Positions 45,485 to 55,205 of a stretch of DNA of 64,000 nt are shown here, piece after piece. The DNA is from Nitratiruptor sp. YY09-18 (lineage in GTDB: Bacteria > Campylobacterota > Campylobacteria > Campylobacterales > Nitratiruptoraceae): the NCBI RefSeq assembly GCF_016593235.1, contig NZ_AP023065.1, forward strand, positions 1,178,001 through 1,242,000, written 5' to 3'. How positions within the stretch are numbered: position 1 is the stretch's first letter; every line of letters begins with the position of its first letter. The translations under genes were made by a program, and so were the position numbers. The notes below the pieces were generated by a model. That model saw only the letters and a program-made list of their open reading frames with translations, did no database searches and had not been told where the DNA came from.

Positions 45485-45967
45485 TCACATATCCAAAATT
45501 TTTAATCTATCTTCAGGGGTGATGATATGCGTAATACGTATACCAAAATTGTTCTTGACAGTATAAAGTTCCCCTTTTGCAATGACTCTGCCGTTGACTT
45601 TGAGATCTATTGGCTCATTGATATAGCGATCAAGTTCTATGATGCTGTTTGGATTAAGCTTGAGGATATCCTCTATAGGCATCGTAGTCGATCCAATCTC
45701 TACAGTGATTTCAAGTGGAATATCTAAAAGCATTGAGAGCTTGGAGTTTTCGCTCTTTTCGTAGTTGCCAAACTGGTCACTTCCATTATCTGTGCTGTAG
45801 CTCTCTTGCGCAAACTGCTGTGCCATGAGCTCATCTGGATTTGTACTCTCTTCATTAGAGACACTTGCCTCCTCGCTCTTCTCTTCATCCTCATTGGCGA
45901 GATCACCAAACTGCTGTGCCATCAACTCGTCAGGACTGAGATCTTTTTGCTCTTCACTCATCTTCAT
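45485..45967 (-). CDS. fliY: C-ring SpoA protein next to FliM (FliN/FliY)
   Basis: A 160-residue protein. The C-terminal SpoA domain reads LDIPLEITVEIGSTTMPIEDILKLNPNSIIELDRYINEPIDLKVNGRVIAKGELYTVKNNFGIRITHIITPEDRL. The acidic N-terminal 65 residues carry two copies of PDELMAQQF (residues 12-20 and 44-52). In Campylobacterota the fliM-linked gene is normally called fliY, but the CheC-like domain of longer FliY is missing here. It could equally be named fliN. It overlaps the fliM 3' end by 14 bases. Confidence 0.8.
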   Translation of the reverse strand: MKMSEEQKDLSPDELMAQQFGDLANEDEEKSEEASVSNEESTNPDELMAQQFAQESYSTDNGSDQFGNYEKSENSKLSMLLDIPLEITVEIGSTTMPIEDILKLNPNSIIELDRYINEPIDLKVNGRVIAKGELYTVKNNFGIRITHIITPEDRLKILDM

Positions 45968-46919
45968 CTTCCTTTACCACTTCTTGCTTGAGAAGTGCAG
46001 CATATTTGTCACGAACTTTTCCAAGCCTACAGATAAACTTCTCTTTATCTCCTACTATGAGTTTCACAGGATCCTCTTTGCTCACATCGAGCATTAACTC
46101 TGAACCTACTTCCCACTCAATGATCTCTTTCATAAAGTAGGTTTTTTTTGCTAGCTCAAGTGCAACAGTCACATCTGTCTCATTCACAAGCTGTGCGAGT
46201 TTTTCTTTCCAGACTTCATCAACCTCCCCTGAAAACTCACTATAGATCACATCTTTAATTGGCAAAAACATCCCTTGCGGGAAACAAAAGTATATAGGTG
46301 CCTCAAATCCATCGATATCGATGATCGCCTCACTGATAACAACCTTCTCATTCCCGCTTGTAATCTTGGCTAATGCAGGATTGAGCTCTGTGCTCTTCTT
46401 CTCGATCTGGATCTGATAGACATTGCTGAAAGTATCTTCGAAAGTCTGCAGTGCCAAATCGATAAAATCTTTTATCACATAGGTCTCAAGCTTTGTAAAT
46501 TCTCGTCCCTCAACTTTAAAAGGTTTTGCAGGGCCTCCAAACATGACACTAATGATTGTAAAGACCAAGCGGGAATCGACAACGAGCAAAGCTGTATCTT
46601 TGAGAGGCTTCATGGTAAAGAGGGTGTAGCTTGATGGCATAGGGATTTTGAACATAAAAGTATTAAAACGGGTGATATAGATGCTCTCTTTGGAGACCAT
46701 ATTGATTTTTGGCATAATTTTGCGGATCTCATCTCTAAACACTTTCACCCAGCGTTCAAAGATCAAATCCAGACCAGGAAGGCCTCCCTTTTTGATCGAT
46801 TCTAGTTGACTAAAATCGAAAGGCTGGAGATCTGAAGTAGTCTCTTGCTCTTGTGGTGCAGTATCGTCACCAAGGAGAGCGTCGATCTCTTCTTGAGATA
46901 AGAACTCTTGTTCAGACAT
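45954..46919 (-). CDS. fliM: Flagellar switch protein FliM
   Basis: About 321 residues. The N-terminal CheY-binding peptide LSQEEIDALLGD is intact (residues 7-18). The middle CheC-like domain contains GGLPGLDLIFERWVKVFRDEIRKIM and VFTIISVMFGGPAKPFKVEGREFTKLE, and the C-terminal SpoA domain starts VTVALELAKKTYFMKEIIEWEVG. The frame opens with a TTG at 46925; the ATG at 46919 behind GAGG is better. It is the first gene of the large minus-strand cluster, with its own sigma-70-like promoter. Confidence 0.96.
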   Translation of the reverse strand: MSEQEFLSQEEIDALLGDDTAPQEQETTSDLQPFDFSQLESIKKGGLPGLDLIFERWVKVFRDEIRKIMPKINMVSKESIYITRFNTFMFKIPMPSSYTLFTMKPLKDTALLVVDSRLVFTIISVMFGGPAKPFKVEGREFTKLETYVIKDFIDLALQTFEDTFSNVYQIQIEKKSTELNPALAKITSGNEKVVISEAIIDIDGFEAPIYFCFPQGMFLPIKDVIYSEFSGEVDEVWKEKLAQLVNETDVTVALELAKKTYFMKEIIEWEVGSELMLDVSKEDPVKLIVGDKEKFICRLGKVRDKYAALLKQEVVKEDEDE

Positions 46920-46948
46920 ATCCAACCTCTATATTAACATTTGTTCTT

Positions 46949-48144: not shown

Positions 48145-48489
48145 ATGGAGAAGCACGATTTTGAGAACAAAAACCTTGAAATTGCCGCAACACATCTAAG
48201 AACAAGCAAAGAGGAGTTAAACCAGTGTGCAAACACTATTTTTGCAACACTCCAAAAACTCGAAAATATTGCGGATGAAAAGACGAAAAATGAGATTCTA
48301 GATGCTGTTGCTGCTTTACAGATGCAAGATATTATTACGCAGCGTCTTGATAAAGTTGCCTCTTTTTTGGCAATGATCGATAAAGAGGTAGCACTGCAAA
48401 GCGATAGCCAGTTTCTCGATCAGTTTGCCTGGGAAAATGAAGTAGACCAAGATGATGTAGACGCACTTTTTAATGAGTACAAAGGATAA
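48145..48489 (+). CDS. Short CheZ-like protein (putative CheY phosphatase)
   Basis: A 114-residue helical protein starting at the ATG at 48145 behind AAAGGG (the frame opens earlier at 48085). LDAVAALQMQDIITQRLDKVASFLAMID carries a D-x-x-x-Q pair (Asp62, Gln66), the spacing of the CheZ active site (Asp143/Gln147 in E. coli). The end, DQDDVDALFNEYKG, resembles the CheZ C-terminal peptide that binds CheY. It lacks the long four-helix extension of enteric CheZ. It is the first gene of the operon with cheA, cheW, cheV and cheY, which fits a phosphatase. Homology is remote; it could instead be an adaptor that shares the CheY-binding tail. Confidence 0.6.
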   Translation: MEKHDFENKNLEIAATHLRTSKEELNQCANTIFATLQKLENIADEKTKNEILDAVAALQMQDIITQRLDKVASFLAMIDKEVALQSDSQFLDQFAWENEVDQDDVDALFNEYKG

Positions 48490-48492
48490 TGC

Positions 48493-50547
48493 ATGCATAT
48501 TAATATCACTGAAGATATGCAAGAGATTCTCGAAGAGTTTATACAGGAGGCTGAAGAGATTTTAGAAAATCTCGACCAAGAGCTCATCGAACTAGAGAAC
48601 GACCCTACAAACAAAGATCTCCTCAACCAGATCTTTCGAGGAATTCATACACTCAAAGGTGGAGCTGGATTTTTAGGACTCGAGAGTATTATAAACCTTG
48701 CCCACGTGATTGAGAGTATCTTTGATAAACTGCGCAATGATCAGATGCAACTCGATTCTAATAAGATGGATATCATCTTGGAGGGGATCGATATACTTAA
48801 AAACTCTCTACGTTCACTCCAAGAGACGCATGAGATACCAGACCCTGAAGATATCAGTGATATAATGCAAAAGCTTCACGATCTTTTAGAAGACAAACTT
48901 CCCGAAACACAAGAGCAACCAAAAAGAGATGAACAATCAGCAATTGAGCAACAAAATGATGCTTCTGCGCAAGGCAATCATGAAGAAATGCAAAACGAAA
49001 GCCCCAAGGAAGAGGATAGCGATTTTGAGATCATATTCAAAGATGATGTAGATCCTGCTGTAGCTGAACTTATCAAAAAGTATCCAAATAAAAATATGAG
49101 CCAAATTCTCGATGAGCTTATCCTCCTTCCACCTGAAGAGCGGGATATGGATCTCATTCTCAAGCTCGATGAACTTATCTCCCAAGGTAAAGATATAGAT
49201 GATTTGGTACTAGAAAAGAGGCCAAAACCGAAAAAAGAAGCTCAAAAAGAAGAGCCTAAGCCTGCTCCCAAGCCGCAAAAAGCTCCTGAACCTGTAGCTG
49301 TGCAAAAAGCGGCTCCAAAACCAGCACAGCAACCTGTAAAGAAAAAAGAGGAGACTGAGACGATTCGCATCGATATCGATCGTATCTCCACACTCATGAA
49401 TCTCGTAGGAGAGCTTGTTCTTGATCGTAACCGTATCGTCAAACTCACTTCACGGTTTCGTACAAACTGCGGTGATCTCGAAGCCATCGAAGAGCTTAAT
49501 GAAGCGATAGCGGGTATGAGCAGGAGTGTATCTGATCTGCAAGAAGTGGTCATGAAGCTACGCATGCAGCCAGTGAAGCGTATTTTTAGCAAATTCCCGC
49601 GCATTGTAAGAGATTTGGCAAAAAAGGTTGGCAAAAAGATCAATCTCGAGCTCGAAGGTGAAGATACAGAGATCGATAGAAGTATACTCAATCAGCTAGA
49701 AGACCCACTCATTCACCTTGTGCGCAACTCCATAGATCATGGAATTGAGCCACCCCAGGATCGTGTAGCCAAAGGTAAACCCGAATATGGCACTATAATC
49801 CTCTCAGCTTTGCAAGAGGGTGATAGAATTATTGTGAGTATAGAAGATGATGGTCGCGGAATAGACCCAGAGAAGGTCAAACAAAAAGCAATAGAAAAAG
49901 GACTCATCAAACCTGAGCAAGCTGAGCAGATGAGTGACAAAGAGGTATTTGAGCTTATCTTTTTGCCTGGATTTAGCACTGCAAGCGAGGTGAGTGATCT
50001 GAGTGGTCGTGGTGTTGGTATGGATGTAGTTGCAAATACTATCCATGCCCTCCGCGGCGATATAGAGATCGATAGTAAACTTGGCAAAGGGACAAAAATC
50101 ACGATGAAATTGCCACTTACTGTAGCAATTATCCGCACACTTATGGTAGGAGTCAATGATCGAATCTTCGCAATACCGCTTTTTAGCGTTGTAGAGATTA
50201 TAAAATATCGCCCCCAAGATATCAAAGATGTAGGAACATACAAATCCTTGATGCTTAGAGACGATGTCTATCTCTTCTTCCATCTCAATGAACTCTTCGA
50301 TATCGAGAGCGAAAACGAAAACAAGTTTGTCATCATAATCAATATTGGCGAGAAACATATCGCTATAGCAGTTGATAATCTCTACGGTGAAGAGGAGATT
50401 GTCATCAAACCTCTTGGAGATATGCTCAAAGAGGTAAAAGGAATAGCAGGTGCTACTATTACAGGAGATGGGAAAGTGGTACTCATTTTGGATATTAAAT
50501 CACTCATAGATACAAAGCGTAACGATCTTATAGGAGTCGTTTCATGA
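48493..50547 (+). CDS. cheA: Chemotaxis histidine kinase CheA
   Basis: A 684-residue CheA. The Hpt (P1) domain has GIHTLKGGAGFLG with phospho-His52. An acidic linker and a Pro/Lys/Ala-rich stretch follow, then the dimerisation domain (IDIDRISTLMNLVGELVLDRNRI). The HATPase domain contains LIHLVRNSIDHGIE (N box), VSIEDDGRGIDPEKV (G1) and SDLSGRGVGMDVV (G2). The C-terminal CheW-like domain ends ILDIKSLIDTKRNDLIG. No receiver domain is fused at the C-terminus, unlike the CheA-REC fusion known from Helicobacter and Campylobacter. Four bases overlap cheW. Confidence 0.97.
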   Translation: MHINITEDMQEILEEFIQEAEEILENLDQELIELENDPTNKDLLNQIFRGIHTLKGGAGFLGLESIINLAHVIESIFDKLRNDQMQLDSNKMDIILEGIDILKNSLRSLQETHEIPDPEDISDIMQKLHDLLEDKLPETQEQPKRDEQSAIEQQNDASAQGNHEEMQNESPKEEDSDFEIIFKDDVDPAVAELIKKYPNKNMSQILDELILLPPEERDMDLILKLDELISQGKDIDDLVLEKRPKPKKEAQKEEPKPAPKPQKAPEPVAVQKAAPKPAQQPVKKKEETETIRIDIDRISTLMNLVGELVLDRNRIVKLTSRFRTNCGDLEAIEELNEAIAGMSRSVSDLQEVVMKLRMQPVKRIFSKFPRIVRDLAKKVGKKINLELEGEDTEIDRSILNQLEDPLIHLVRNSIDHGIEPPQDRVAKGKPEYGTIILSALQEGDRIIVSIEDDGRGIDPEKVKQKAIEKGLIKPEQAEQMSDKEVFELIFLPGFSTASEVSDLSGRGVGMDVVANTIHALRGDIEIDSKLGKGTKITMKLPLTVAIIRTLMVGVNDRIFAIPLFSVVEIIKYRPQDIKDVGTYKSLMLRDDVYLFFHLNELFDIESENENKFVIIINIGEKHIAIAVDNLYGEEEIVIKPLGDMLKEVKGIAGATITGDGKVVLILDIKSLIDTKRNDLIGVVS

Positions 50548-51053
50548 AAGATATTGAAGTTTTGGGACTCAGCGAACTTCCTGAAGAGAGTATCAAGGAA
50601 GAGAATCGCGTCATTGCATTTTTGCTCAACAATGAGCTTATTGGTATAGATATTAAAAACATCATCAAAATCACTAAAAAGCTAGAAATCACCCCTGTAC
50701 CAAAAACATCAGAGCATATCTTGGGTGTAATGAATCTGCGGGGAAACATTGTGCCTGTTGTCAATGTCAAGAAAATGCTCAATCTCCCTCATGCAGATGA
50801 TATCAATGAACAAGATCTCATTCTCATAATTGATTCAGAGATGGGACATGTGGGTCTCGTTATTGATAAAGTTGTAGGTGCAATTACAATTCAAGAAGAG
50901 GATATTCAGCCTGCACCTATTAACTCTATCGGTATCGATTCGCAATATATTATTGGTGTAATAGTGACTCATGAAGAGATAGGAAACAAAAATCTCCTTA
51001 TCCTTCTTGATATTGATAAGCTCTTCTATAATGATGAAGAGAAAGAGGAATAG
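50544..51053 (+). CDS. cheW: Chemotaxis coupling protein CheW
   Basis: A 169-residue CheW: NRVIAFLLNNELIGIDIKNIIKITKKLEITPVPKTSEHILGVMNLRGNIVPVVNVKKML is the conserved core, and GLVIDKVVGAITIQEEDIQPAP follows. It couples receptors to CheA. It overlaps cheA by four bases and precedes cheV by nine. Confidence 0.96.
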   Translation: MKDIEVLGLSELPEESIKEENRVIAFLLNNELIGIDIKNIIKITKKLEITPVPKTSEHILGVMNLRGNIVPVVNVKKMLNLPHADDINEQDLILIIDSEMGHVGLVIDKVVGAITIQEEDIQPAPINSIGIDSQYIIGVIVTHEEIGNKNLLILLDIDKLFYNDEEKEE

Positions 51054-51062
51054 AGGTTTGCT

Positions 51063-52022
51063 ATGAGAAAAAAAGAGTACTTGCCAAAGATTTTAGAAAC
51101 TGGAGCAAACGAGCTTGAGGTTATTGACTTTCGTATGTATGAAGAGCTCGAAGATGGCACGATTTACGAGTGGGTGCTTGGTGTAAATGTTGCGAAAGTC
51201 AAAGAGGTAATACAAAGACCCAGTAATATTTTTCGCTCACCTGGTATGCCACCAGAAGTTGAAGGACTCGCAAAAATCCGTGAAGAGGTTATCCCTATCG
51301 TGAACCTTGCTAAATGGATGAAAATAAAGGTACCGCAGCAAAAAAGCGATAAGTATGTCATAGTGATGGAATTTTTGCGTGAAGTCATAGGAGTTCTTGT
51401 TCATGAAGCAAAGAGGATTCGCCGTATAAAATGGGCCGATATCAAAAAACCTCCTGCAAGTATCGATGAAAAGCTTGGCGGCAAAGTAGTAGGAGTTATT
51501 GAGATAGAAGATGGACAACTCCTACTGCTTCTTGATTTTGAAGGAATTCTAGATGAGCTTGGAATGATCAAAGTCTTCAACGTAGAAGATAAAGAGGAGT
51601 ATGCGAAGAGTGAAAAATCTTACAATATCTTAATTTTAGATGATAGTCCAGTTGCACGCAAGATCATACGTAAGATCTTGGAAAAAGATGGACATAAAGT
51701 CTATGAGGTAGAGAGTGGAATCGAAGGATTGGAATATCTTGAGAGCTTGGCGCAGCAAGCAGAGCAAGAGGGAGTAGATATAACAGATAAATTGCAGCTA
51801 ATTATTAGCGATATAGAGATGCCTGGTATGGATGGTCTCACATTTACCAAAAAGGTCAAAGAGCATCCTGTATTTTCTAAAATCCCAATTGTTATCAACA
51901 CATCACTCTCAGATAAAGCAACAGTAGATAAGACACGCTTTGTCAATGCAGATGCACACCTTGTAAAATTTGACACAAAAGATCTCTTACATATTGTAAG
52001 AGAGTATGCGATAAAGAAATAG
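51063..52022 (+). CDS. cheV: Chemotaxis protein CheV (CheW-receiver fusion)
   Basis: A 319-residue protein. The CheW-like domain (residues ~10-175) has PSNIFRSPGMPPEVEGLAKIREEVIPIVNLAKWM. The receiver domain (~190-319) has YNILILDDSPVARKII, LIISDIEMPGMDG with the phospho-Asp, and HLVKFDTKDL with the conserved Lys. CheV proteins act as adaptable couplers, which matters in a system where no cheR or cheB is visible nearby. An AGAGG-type ribosome site precedes the ATG. Confidence 0.95.
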   Translation: MRKKEYLPKILETGANELEVIDFRMYEELEDGTIYEWVLGVNVAKVKEVIQRPSNIFRSPGMPPEVEGLAKIREEVIPIVNLAKWMKIKVPQQKSDKYVIVMEFLREVIGVLVHEAKRIRRIKWADIKKPPASIDEKLGGKVVGVIEIEDGQLLLLLDFEGILDELGMIKVFNVEDKEEYAKSEKSYNILILDDSPVARKIIRKILEKDGHKVYEVESGIEGLEYLESLAQQAEQEGVDITDKLQLIISDIEMPGMDGLTFTKKVKEHPVFSKIPIVINTSLSDKATVDKTRFVNADAHLVKFDTKDLLHIVREYAIKK

Positions 52023-52034
52023 GAGGAAGATTCA

Positions 52035-52433
52035 ATGGCATTACCCGAGAGAAATATAAAAATTTTGATAGTCGATGATGCACCCATGATCAGACGCATT
52101 CTCAAAAACCTCCTCAAAGAGATGGGATTTACAAATCTAGAAGAGGCTGAAGATGGTATGGTTGCACTGCAAAAACTCAGAAGTCAAAAGTTTGACTTTG
52201 TCATAACTGACTGGAATATGCCAAACCTCACAGGTATTGAACTTGTTCAAGAGATTCGCAAAGACCCAAATCTCAAACATATACCGATAATGATGGTGAC
52301 AGCAGAAGCAAAAAAAGAGAATATCATTCTCGCTCTCAAAAGTGGAGTCAATAACTATATTGTCAAACCATTTACGCCAGAAAATGTCAAAAACAAAATA
52401 GAAGCAATTTTTAGCGCTAAATCAAAAAAATAG
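52035..52433 (+). CDS. cheY: Chemotaxis response regulator CheY
   Basis: A 132-residue stand-alone receiver. All active-site residues are in place: Asp14-Asp15 (ILIVDDAPM), phospho-Asp59 (FVITDWNMP), Thr89 (MMVTAEA) and Lys111 (IVKPFT). No output domain is present. It should bind FliM to change motor rotation. AGGAGGA precedes the ATG. Confidence 0.97.
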   Translation: MALPERNIKILIVDDAPMIRRILKNLLKEMGFTNLEEAEDGMVALQKLRSQKFDFVITDWNMPNLTGIELVQEIRKDPNLKHIPIMMVTAEAKKENIILALKSGVNNYIVKPFTPENVKNKIEAIFSAKSKK

Positions 52434-52442
52434 GAGTCAACA

Positions 52443-53750
52443 ATGAGTAAAAAAGAGAACAGTATCCCTTGCGAAGATGCACTCAAAGCTTGCCAAAAAG
52501 AAAAGGATGCCCTCATAAAAAAAGATAAAGAGCGCTGGATAATAAGTGGTGAGAAACTTGCCGAAGGTATTTTCAACGCAGCTCTTGTCAAAACCGGCAT
52601 CTATCGCTTCAAAAACCGTTTTGCAAATTTCAATGAATCTTTTGGCAAGATCACAAAAACAAGTGATGAGAGTCTCAAAATTACAGATACTATTATGCAA
52701 AGTATTGCTGAAATTGAAAAAGCACAGAAAGAGACTACCAACGAGATAGATAATGGTGAGACAATTCTCAATAAAACAAACCGTGATATCCTCGATTCAG
52801 TCAAGGCGATGGATAACCTCACAAAAACTACAGAGGAGCTCAAACGTAAAATCAGTGGGATCGATCATGTCCTCAATGTTATACTAGAAATTACTGAGCA
52901 GACAAACCTCCTCGCTCTCAATGCTGCCATCGAAGCAGCAAGAGCTGGAGAAGTGGGAAGAGGCTTTGCTGTTGTTGCAGATGAAGTGCGTAAACTAGCT
53001 GAAAAAACAAGTAAGAGCGCAAGTGAGATACGCGAAGTGACAATTTCAGTAATGGATGAAATGGACAACACCTCAAAAGTTGTCAATAACGCTAAAACTA
53101 TTGTAGAAGATAGTGCTGAGGGAGCCAGTGGTGTTCTTAAAACTTTCCATAAAATCAAGCAAAATAGTGACAACGTGACAAATCTCATTAAAAGGCAGAT
53201 CGATCATACAAATAAGCAAAAAGAACATATCTACACATTTAGTCAAGAGATTCAAAAACTCAACGAAGACCTCAAACAAACACAAGAGCTTGCCAATGTC
53301 ACAGGTTTGAGGATACTCTCTACTATTGATTATATGAAAGAGGGAATCGATAGCTGTGCTGCATATCAAAAAGATGAGGCTGTAACAAAAGTGCTCAATG
53401 CAATTGAAGCTCACTCGATCTATATTACAAATGTAGCAAAAGTTGTTGAAGGCTATCAAGATATCACCCTTAAAGATTTTACTTCATGTGACTATGGTAA
53501 ATGGTTCTACTCTGGTGAAGCTTTTAAAGAGCTTCGTCCTTATGGTGATGAAGTGATAGCAATTTTGGAGGGTACCGAAGATATCCATAAAGATATTCAC
53601 AATCTGGCCCATGAACTTGTAAGACTCAAGAAAGAAAACAGAATGGATGAAGTTTTTGACAAATTCCATGAGCTCGCAGATACGGCAAGTGAACTTGTCA
53701 AAGAGCTTACAAAAATCTATGCAATCATTGCATCAAAAGAGCTTGATTAA
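52443..53750 (+). CDS. Cytoplasmic chemoreceptor with C-terminal CZB domain (TlpD-like)
   Basis: A 435-residue receptor with no membrane segment. The signalling tip is canonical ([47 protein letters not shown]). The C-terminal part has the chemoreceptor zinc-binding (CZB) pattern: [29 protein letters not shown] and [14 protein letters not shown], giving His, Cys, His and His ligands. This is the layout of Helicobacter TlpD, a soluble receptor tied to energy or oxidant sensing. The N-terminal ~50 residues contain two Cys ([11 protein letters not shown]). It follows cheY by nine bases, so it is likely made with the core signalling proteins. Confidence 0.92.
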
Positions 53751-53759
53751 AGGCTAACT

Positions 53760-55205
53760 ATGATTTATAAAAGCATCTATAACAAAAGAGGAATAGAGCC
53801 CAAAAATAGTGAATCACCTTTTGAGCTTCATGAGCTCTTTTTCTCTATTACTGATCCAAAAGGGATAATACTTACAAGTAATGATGTTTTCCAAAGAGTC
53901 TCAAAATTTGATTTTGAAGAGCTTATAAGAAAACCGCACAATGTCATTCGTCATCCAGATATGCCGCGAGCAATATTCAAAGCTTTGTGGGATACTATAC
54001 AACAGGGTAAACCTTTTATAGGCTATGTGAAGAATATGGCCAAAGATGGATCTTACTACTGGGTTTTAGCCGCAGTCTATCCGGTAATTGACAAAGAGGG
54101 CAATATCAAAAGTTATATTTCTTTACGACTCAAACCCTCCTCAAAACTCTTTGAAATAATCCCGCCTCTTTACAAAGAACTCTTAGAGCATGAACTCAAA
54201 AACGATATAGATGCAACACTAGAACTACTTGGTAAACGCCTCAAAGAGCTAGGCTTTGAGAGATATGACGATTTTGCAAAGCATGCATTTTTCCAAGAGA
54301 TCTTGAGTCGTGAAAAGATCTTGGCCAATAAGAGTGTACAAAACTGCCAAGTTGATTTGACTAAGGTGAATGAAGAAAATATAGAATTTATCGATCTTCT
54401 TTGTAATCTCCAGACTATCTTCTTCCGCATCAATCGCTACTTCAATGAGATTTTTAGCAAGGTCAATCTCTTCTTGAATCTCAATGATGAGCTCAATAAA
54501 AAGAGTAAGTTCATCTATGAACTTGCCGAAGATATCCGCTTGCTCTCTCTCAATGCCTCTATAGAGAGCTACAAAGTCAAGAAAGAGGGAGTGAGTTTCT
54601 CAACTCTCTCGCATGAGATGCGCAAAAATGCAGAGCTATGTGAGAGAAAGATCATACAGCTAAGTGAAATCATTGAAGATACCAAAAAAGATATCGAAGA
54701 TATAGGATTTAATATCCTCACATCCAAACTCATTATTGAGATGATAAATTTTTTCATCAAAGAGATGATTACAAACCTCTCTCATACCAATGTTAGCAAT
54801 GAGAAGAAAGAGGAGGTAGTCAATAATATCACTAGTCTTTTTAACTTGCTCATATCATATGCACAAAATCTTTCTAAAAATGTCTATGCATCAAAAAGTC
54901 AGCTGCGCTCAATGTTTTACAATATCCAAGAGCTCAATGTGCTCATCAACAGACTTGATTTCATTCATATAAACGGTCTTATTGAATCAGCACATACCAA
55001 AGAGGAAGGTGGTGGTTTTACTATTATCTTTTCACAAATGCTTAAGCTCATTGAAGCAGCAAAGCAAGAGATTATCAATTTAGAAGTGAGCATTACAAGT
55101 GCAAATGAAGAGAACCTCACAGTCAACCTTATCACCGATGTAGCGCAGCAAAAGATCGCAAAACTGCAAAAGCAGTATGCTGATATTTTCCAAAAAGTTA
55201 GCTAA
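53760..55205 (+). CDS. PAS protein with two degenerate chemoreceptor-tip motifs
   Basis: A 481-residue soluble protein. Residues ~20-135 are an Aer-type PAS domain (KPHNVIRHPDMPRAIFKALWDTIQQGKPFIGYVKNMAKDGSYYWVLA). Then comes a long helical region with two segments that follow the receptor hairpin-tip pattern without its invariant residues: LAEDIRLLSLNASIESYKVKKEGVSFSTLSHEMRK (about 255-289) and LINRLDFIHINGLIESAHTKEEGGGFTIIFSQMLKL (about 395-430). Neither keeps the usual [11 protein letters not shown]...[10 protein letters not shown] residues, so normal CheA/CheW binding is doubtful. It is the last gene of the chemotaxis operon, nine bases after the CZB receptor. It may redox-tune that receptor or antagonise the array. 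Its 3' end overlaps the convergent ParA-like gene by eight bases. Confidence 0.75.
   Translation: MIYKSIYNKRGIEPKNSESPFELHELFFSITDPKGIILTSNDVFQRVSKFDFEELIRKPHNVIRHPDMPRAIFKALWDTIQQGKPFIGYVKNMAKDGSYYWVLAAVYPVIDKEGNIKSYISLRLKPSSKLFEIIPPLYKELLEHELKNDIDATLELLGKRLKELGFERYDDFAKHAFFQEILSREKILANKSVQNCQVDLTKVNEENIEFIDLLCNLQTIFFRINRYFNEIFSKVNLFLNLNDELNKKSKFIYELAEDIRLLSLNASIESYKVKKEGVSFSTLSHEMRKNAELCERKIIQLSEIIEDTKKDIEDIGFNILTSKLIIEMINFFIKEMITNLSHTNVSNEKKEEVVNNITSLFNLLISYAQNLSKNVYASKSQLRSMFYNIQELNVLINRLDFIHINGLIESAHTKEEGGGFTIIFSQMLKLIEAAKQEIINLEVSITSANEENLTVNLITDVAQQKIAKLQKQYADIFQKVS

Follow-up and report, generated by a model that had tools for sequence, protein, structure and literature searches.

A short CheZ-like protein encoded directly ahead of cheA in the chemotaxis operon of Nitratiruptor sp. 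YY09-18

The swimming signal CheY-P is turned off by the enzyme CheZ. The first gene of a chemotaxis operon in Nitratiruptor sp. YY09-18 encodes a predicted 114 amino acid protein, termed P0001 here, which is very probably a short CheZ homologue truncated at the tip of its hairpin, and which most likely dephosphorylates the CheY-P of its own operon. The case for this reading comes from the D-x-x-x-Q catalytic pair, the C-terminal tail, profile links in both directions with the remote CheZ proteins of Campylobacterota (the Helicobacter pylori type) and the gene position before cheA. These bear out the CheZ-like reading that had been proposed from the nucleotide sequence and its open reading frames (the preliminary description).

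The gene, its operon and its distribution

The stretch of DNA analyzed is 64,000 nt in length, spans positions 1,178,001–1,242,000 of contig NZ_AP023065.1 and is termed the window; the genome that holds it, G000, is 1.76 Mb in size. The P0001 open reading frame has an ATG start and a TAA stop codon, and the sequence AAAGGG is found six bases 5′ of the ATG. The cheA start codon is 3 nt past the stop codon of P0001. The open reading frame at the head of the operon is real, as had been described. The gene order is cheZ-like, cheA, cheW, cheV, cheY, a CZB chemoreceptor and a PAS protein. Features of the locus are as follows.

48145–48489, + strand: short CheZ-like protein P0001, 114 aa (open reading frame; kept in 20 of 22 family genomes)
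48169–48264, + strand: predicted hairpin helix 1, residues 9–40 (AlphaFold)
48277–48387, + strand: predicted hairpin helix 2, residues 45–81, with a break at 58–59 (AlphaFold)
48328–48342, + strand: D-x-x-x-Q pair, Asp62–Gln66 (invariant in 20 of 20 copies; aligned with the remote CheZ pair)
48424–48444, + strand: FAWENEV box, residues 94–100 (F94, W96 and E99 invariant)
48448–48480, + strand: predicted C-terminal tail helix, residues 102–112, candidate CheY-binding segment (alignment, AlphaFold, tail matrix)
48493–50547, + strand: cheA, with Hpt, H-kinase_dim, HATPase_c and CheW domains (domain matches)
50544–51053, + strand: cheW (domain match)
51063–52022, + strand: cheV, with CheW and receiver domains (domain match)
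52035–52433, + strand: cheY, presumed substrate, 52% identity to E. coli CheY (domain match, alignment)
52443–53750, + strand: chemoreceptor with MCP signalling and CZB domains (domain match)
53760–55205, + strand: PAS protein with a weak MCP-signal match below the cut-off (domain match)
45954–46925, − strand: fliM, presumed CheY-P target, with an N-terminal LSQEEIDALL segment (domain match)

Asp62 is encoded at positions 48328–48330 and Gln66 at 48340–48342, both within ALQMQDIITQRLDKV, and the C-terminal sequence of P0001 is EVDQDDVDALFNEYKG. Alignment of the operon CheY with E. coli CheY shows that the segments DWNMPN and MVTAEAKKENII are unchanged.

Sixty genomes were searched for homologues of P0001. 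Of the 22 genomes in the family (Nitratiruptor type), 20 have one, i.e. the window genome, 13 of 15 others of the same genus and all six genomes of two sister genera; outside of the family the 60 genomes gave two weak matches. In all 20 carriers the next open reading frame is cheA, at a gap of 3–10 nt. The two family genomes that have no homologue (G006 and G009) also have no CheA dimerisation domain, and the other 20 have one each. A scan of genome contigs returned 12 Campylobacterota-type records and one Rhodocyclales MAG, and a tblastn search against plasmids gave zero matches.

The family copies are 30%–57% identical to P0001 and have chain lengths of 107–122 aa, with the exception of L020 (genus g3), which is 171 aa. 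The alignment of the 20 copies has 13 invariant columns and these include D62, Q66, R67, F94, W96, E99, Q102 and D106. Three of these residues are in the FAWENEV box that precedes the tail. A counterpart of this box was not noticed in remote or canonical CheZ, and a role as a replacement contact is speculation.

The operon belongs to the F14 type. The available text of a survey of the phylum reports that the native F3 system, in which cheZ precedes trhP, was lost in Nitratiruptor, that an F14 cluster was acquired from Aquificota along with the flagellar genes, and that Nitratiruptor has F14-CheY as its sole CheY (PMC9321776). The parts available of this and a second phylum survey (PMC9239204) name no phosphatase for F14. 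A published description of the P0001 protein was not found in the literature covered, in which few subscription papers are represented; the supplementary tables of PMC9321776 may list the protein. Searches of the 22 family genomes gave no above-cut-off CheZ, and no CheX (PF13690) or CheC (PF04509) at E ≤ 0.001, where positive controls were matched. P0001 itself matches neither CheC nor CheX, and identity with either of these was rejected on the strength of these searches.

Profile comparisons with CheZ

Searched as a single sequence against Pfam, NCBIfam and PDB, P0001 gave nothing of note and CheZ was not named. A profile of the family was then compared with 397 Campylobacterota genomes and matched 33 of them at E ≤ 0.01, where about four matches are expected by chance (own arithmetic). 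Eleven of the 33 are the family itself. Of the 22 outside matches, the 19 with loci given were read, and 18 are CheZ or short CheZ-like open reading frames: eight remote CheZ of 228–281 aa (L059–L062, L066, L067, L070, L072), a remote CheZ of 161 aa (L063), six open reading frames of 111–118 aa from another Campylobacterota family, f9, which have the same motif (L055, L056, L064, L065, L068, L071), and three other short open reading frames with the motif D-I-[LI]-[TS]-Q (L057, L058, L069). The nineteenth, L073, was left unclassified. The three other short open reading frames (L058:1450–1860, L069:1423–1842 and L057) are 136, 139 and 119 aa in length with tails EFF, DFF and ELF, respectively, and the first two adjoin receiver-domain-like open reading frames.

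The reverse search was made with a profile (A3) of 15 remote CheZ and four short f9 forms. At a threshold of E ≤ 0.1 A3 has matches, most of them very strong, in 333 of the 397 genomes, and many f9 genomes show three matches each to the remote CheZ profile; among the 11 family genomes of the sample it gives weak matches in four and none in seven. In the window genome the single match at E ≤ 1 is the P0001 gene (E = 0.0103, positions 48199–48477, residues 19–111). Over the 22 family genomes the five best rows are again this gene (G018, G004, G008, G017, G000), four further rows are in longer open reading frames and 14 genomes have no match. A3 recovers five of the 20 family copies and misses 15.

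Profile-profile alignment links the family to the f9 forms (seven rows, the 161 aa form included; probability 96.5, E = 7.9e-10), to the three other short open reading frames (92.7, E = 4.2e-7) and to the 15 remote CheZ (90.5, E = 1.4e-6), where the first two sets and seven of the 15 remote rows had been found with the family's own profile; with only the eight remote CheZ picked by Pfam the values are 40.3 and E = 2.9e-4. The alignment with 21 canonical CheZ is not significant (6.4, E = 0.0057). D62 and Q66 fall on the D-x-x-x-Q pair of every partner. Controls consisted of the reversed target and of shuffles in seven-column blocks, 100 for each set. No shuffle reached the real score for the f9 forms, the 15 remote CheZ or the other short open reading frames, one did so for the eight remote CheZ and five for canonical CheZ. 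For the first four sets the reversed target fell far short of the real score, and for canonical CheZ it exceeded it. Homology of P0001 to the remote CheZ of Campylobacterota is thus supported by these sequence profile scores and their controls. A profile comparison had been put forward in the preliminary description as a check, and its outcome is a link to remote CheZ with the catalytic pair in register. Homology to E. coli CheZ would follow through a chain, i.e. from the link between remote and canonical CheZ (94.8, E = 4.9e-8), as there is no significant direct match.

In Pfam searches CheZ is the family that most members match (five of 20 at E ≤ 1, best 1e-5), e.g. L019 (E = 0.0033) and L016 (E = 0.017), and unrelated helical families also give low values, e.g. 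REC1 with L016 (E = 1.4e-4). L015, L017, L018 and two f9 forms show no Pfam CheZ at E ≤ 0.1. The curated cut-off of Pfam CheZ (PF04344) is 30.7 bits. P0001 has no match to it, the best member (L020) scores 25.9 bits, a remote CheZ (L023) is also under it at 26.0 bits and none of the 60 relatives is above it. P0001 is not filed under PF04344 because this cut-off is not reached. Compared with PDB, the family profile gives nine weak helical matches, from which E. coli CheZ (1KMI) is absent though it is present in the library; A3 has 1KMI as second of 42 matches (E = 0.046), among coiled coils.

A separate observation is of three chemoreceptor-like proteins of Pseudomonadota-type genomes (L043:512–1732, L076 and L103), in which QFQD[IV]xxQ follows the MCP signalling hairpin and the last residues are IELF. 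Weak Pfam CheZ matches are found in L076 (E = 0.018) and L103 (E = 4.3e-4), and the L043 gene precedes cheY and cheA. From their sequences these proteins may bear a CheZ-like module.

Predicted structure and comparison with known CheZ proteins

An AlphaFold model of P0001 made with the 20-row alignment has helices at residues 9–40, 45–57 and 60–81, a short helix at 88–94 in the linker and a tail helix at 102–112 (mean pLDDT 79.7, pTM 0.66; block means of 62, 62 and 50 from residue 91 on). Hairpin, linker and C-terminal helix are all predicted to be present. The absence of a long helical hairpin, as first described, therefore stands as regards length, but a hairpin as such is predicted. The model of remote CheZ L023 displays the same order, with helices at 55–115 and 120–187 and a tail helix at 212–223 (pLDDT 71.2, pTM 0.44). 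The catalytic Asp is about 20 residues past the turn in P0001 versus about 44 in L023, thus each arm of the P0001 hairpin is about 24 residues shorter. By these models P0001 would have no counterpart of the N-terminal region of remote CheZ, and its hairpin would be shorter at the distal tip by about 24 residues in each arm.

Fold searches with the P0001 model (Foldseek, VIA-align, BFVD) gave generic hairpins among the matches listed. The remote CheZ model did no better, solved CheZ being likewise absent among its matches listed, and these searches therefore argue neither for nor against CheZ.

Remote CheZ shares with P0001 the D-x-x-x-Q pair on the second hairpin helix, the linker and an acidic-hydrophobic C-terminal tail helix. 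It differs in chain length (207–281 aa in the 15 aligned versus 114 aa, and P0001 is indeed the smaller protein, as had been described), in an N-terminal segment of the MTQEELDALM type, in the longer arms and in gene position, since in the F3 genomes of the survey text available it precedes trhP (PMC9321776) whereas P0001 precedes cheA. H. pylori CheZ can do without its N-terminal region but requires D189, Q193 and the C-terminal region (PMC11237671, available part). The parts that P0001 has kept and lost fit these requirements.

The small size is shared. CheZ homologues of 111–118 aa are present in f9, a family of the same order that also has the 161 aa form L063, and these homologues have the same motif and no hairpin tip. 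Unlike P0001, they display the motif as QD[LI][HFY]RQK, as in remote CheZ, with which their alignment has E = 2e-29; in the three-gene neighbourhoods seen, the gene is accompanied by a chemoreceptor and an open reading frame which we take to be truD-like, and not by cheA. In the alignment of the f9 forms with remote CheZ both flanks match and the gap spans the hairpin tip, so that at the sequence level the tip shortening appears more clearly in them than in P0001. The objection that a short hairpin rules out CheZ was rejected on account of this alignment, in which the missing stretch is at the tip. Three CheZ sequences above the Pfam cut-off (L094, L095 and L096; 216, 192 and 207 aa) each align to the profile as two segments with a gap of about 30 positions between them, which suggests shortened hairpins in canonical CheZ too.

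E. coli CheZ (PF04344, 1KMI) has D143 and Q147 over D62 and Q66 of P0001, within the non-significant alignment, and a similar tail. It is however 214 aa in length with a hairpin at 35–168, the tip of which docks CheA-short (PMC7750401, in the text available), and the P0001 form should therefore not localise in that way. According to the same source the hairpin of Azorhizobium caulinodans CheZ falls about 25 residues short of the E. coli one, thus hairpin length is known to vary. That protein differs from P0001 in its 236 aa chain, its long N-terminal helix and its hairpin at 87–195 (PMC7750401), about 109 residues versus about 73 in the AlphaFold model of P0001.

The Asp62–Gln66 pair is present where it had been placed, is invariant in 20 of 20 family copies and is in register with the remote CheZ pair. 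A motif A-x-x-F-Q precedes the catalytic Asp of CheZ according to the available part of PMC7750401, and the comparable sequence of P0001 is ALQMQD. In looser form, A..[FMLY][QE]D, the pattern is found in eight of 20 family members, three of 15 remote, none of seven f9 and 20 of 21 canonical CheZ.

The likeness of the C-terminal end to a CheY-binding tail holds in part. The tail is conserved, and a position matrix from 20 canonical CheZ tails puts P0001 second among the 303 open frames of the window. The value for P0001 is however below zero (−4.9), as are those of 17 of 20 family members in all. Most other members of the same genus score below P0001, and only L015, L018 and L020, from the sister genera, are above zero. 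The tail of L015 ends in EQNDVDDILKSYGL and that of E. coli CheZ in SQDQVDDLLDSLGF.

Proposed function and alternatives

In E. coli, CheZ is a dimer with a four-helix bundle; its Asp pairs with a lysine of CheY and its Gln enters the active site. By analogy with E. coli and H. pylori CheZ, two P0001 hairpins would form a four-helix bundle. CheA would load CheY with phosphate and P0001 would unload it. The tail helix may catch the FliM-binding face of CheY-P, Asp62 would pair with the conserved CheY lysine (Lys94 of the window CheY, which corresponds to Lys92 of E. coli) and Gln66 would enter the active site of CheY and place the attacking water at phospho-Asp59.

Alternatively, P0001 may bind CheY-P without catalysis, holding it near the array or competing with FliM, while CheY itself, or CheV acting as a phosphate sink, would take care of dephosphorylation. 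The presence in the operon of CheV with its receiver domain, and a hairpin far shorter than in remote CheZ, are compatible with this. The alternative is nevertheless considered unlikely, as both catalytic residues, which a mere binder could do without, show no variation among 20 copies that have 30%–57% identity to P0001.

It is less likely still that P0001 is a helical-hairpin protein of the flagellar system with no relationship to CheZ, e.g. an export chaperone or FliJ-like helper, whose likeness to CheZ is due to chance. Generic hairpins in the Foldseek and VIA-align searches and weak Pfam FliJ matches in two of 20 members (best E = 0.012) point in this direction, however the remote CheZ links withstand the reversed and block-shuffled controls, 18 of the 19 outside matches read are CheZ-like, and the gene is placed before cheA and lost jointly with it.

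In the systems studied, the substrate of CheZ is CheY. That P0001 is a CheZ-type phosphatase acting mainly on another receiver domain, e.g. that of the CheV encoded in the operon, is very improbable in view of this and of the E. coli residues that CheY keeps around the known CheZ contact.

The preferred reading, a short CheZ homologue acting on CheY-P, has a possible wider extension, which is put forward tentatively and at somewhat less than even confidence. P0001 would be the unnamed CheY-P phosphatase of F14-class operons, carried into Nitratiruptor together with the Aquificota flagellar and chemotaxis cluster. Together with the 111–118 aa forms and the QFQDxxxQ segments of the three chemoreceptors, it would show that about 70 residues of hairpin and a tail of 12 residues make up the working core of CheZ, and that this module has been repeatedly trimmed and re-used.

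As single-sequence Pfam and NCBIfam searches miss P0001, other short CheZ may be filed as hypothetical proteins. For genomes in which CheX, CheC and above-cut-off CheZ were not found, P0001 offers a candidate phosphatase for the F14 operon. A natural homologue with about half of the hairpin and no N-terminal region also points to a minimal catalytic unit of CheZ.
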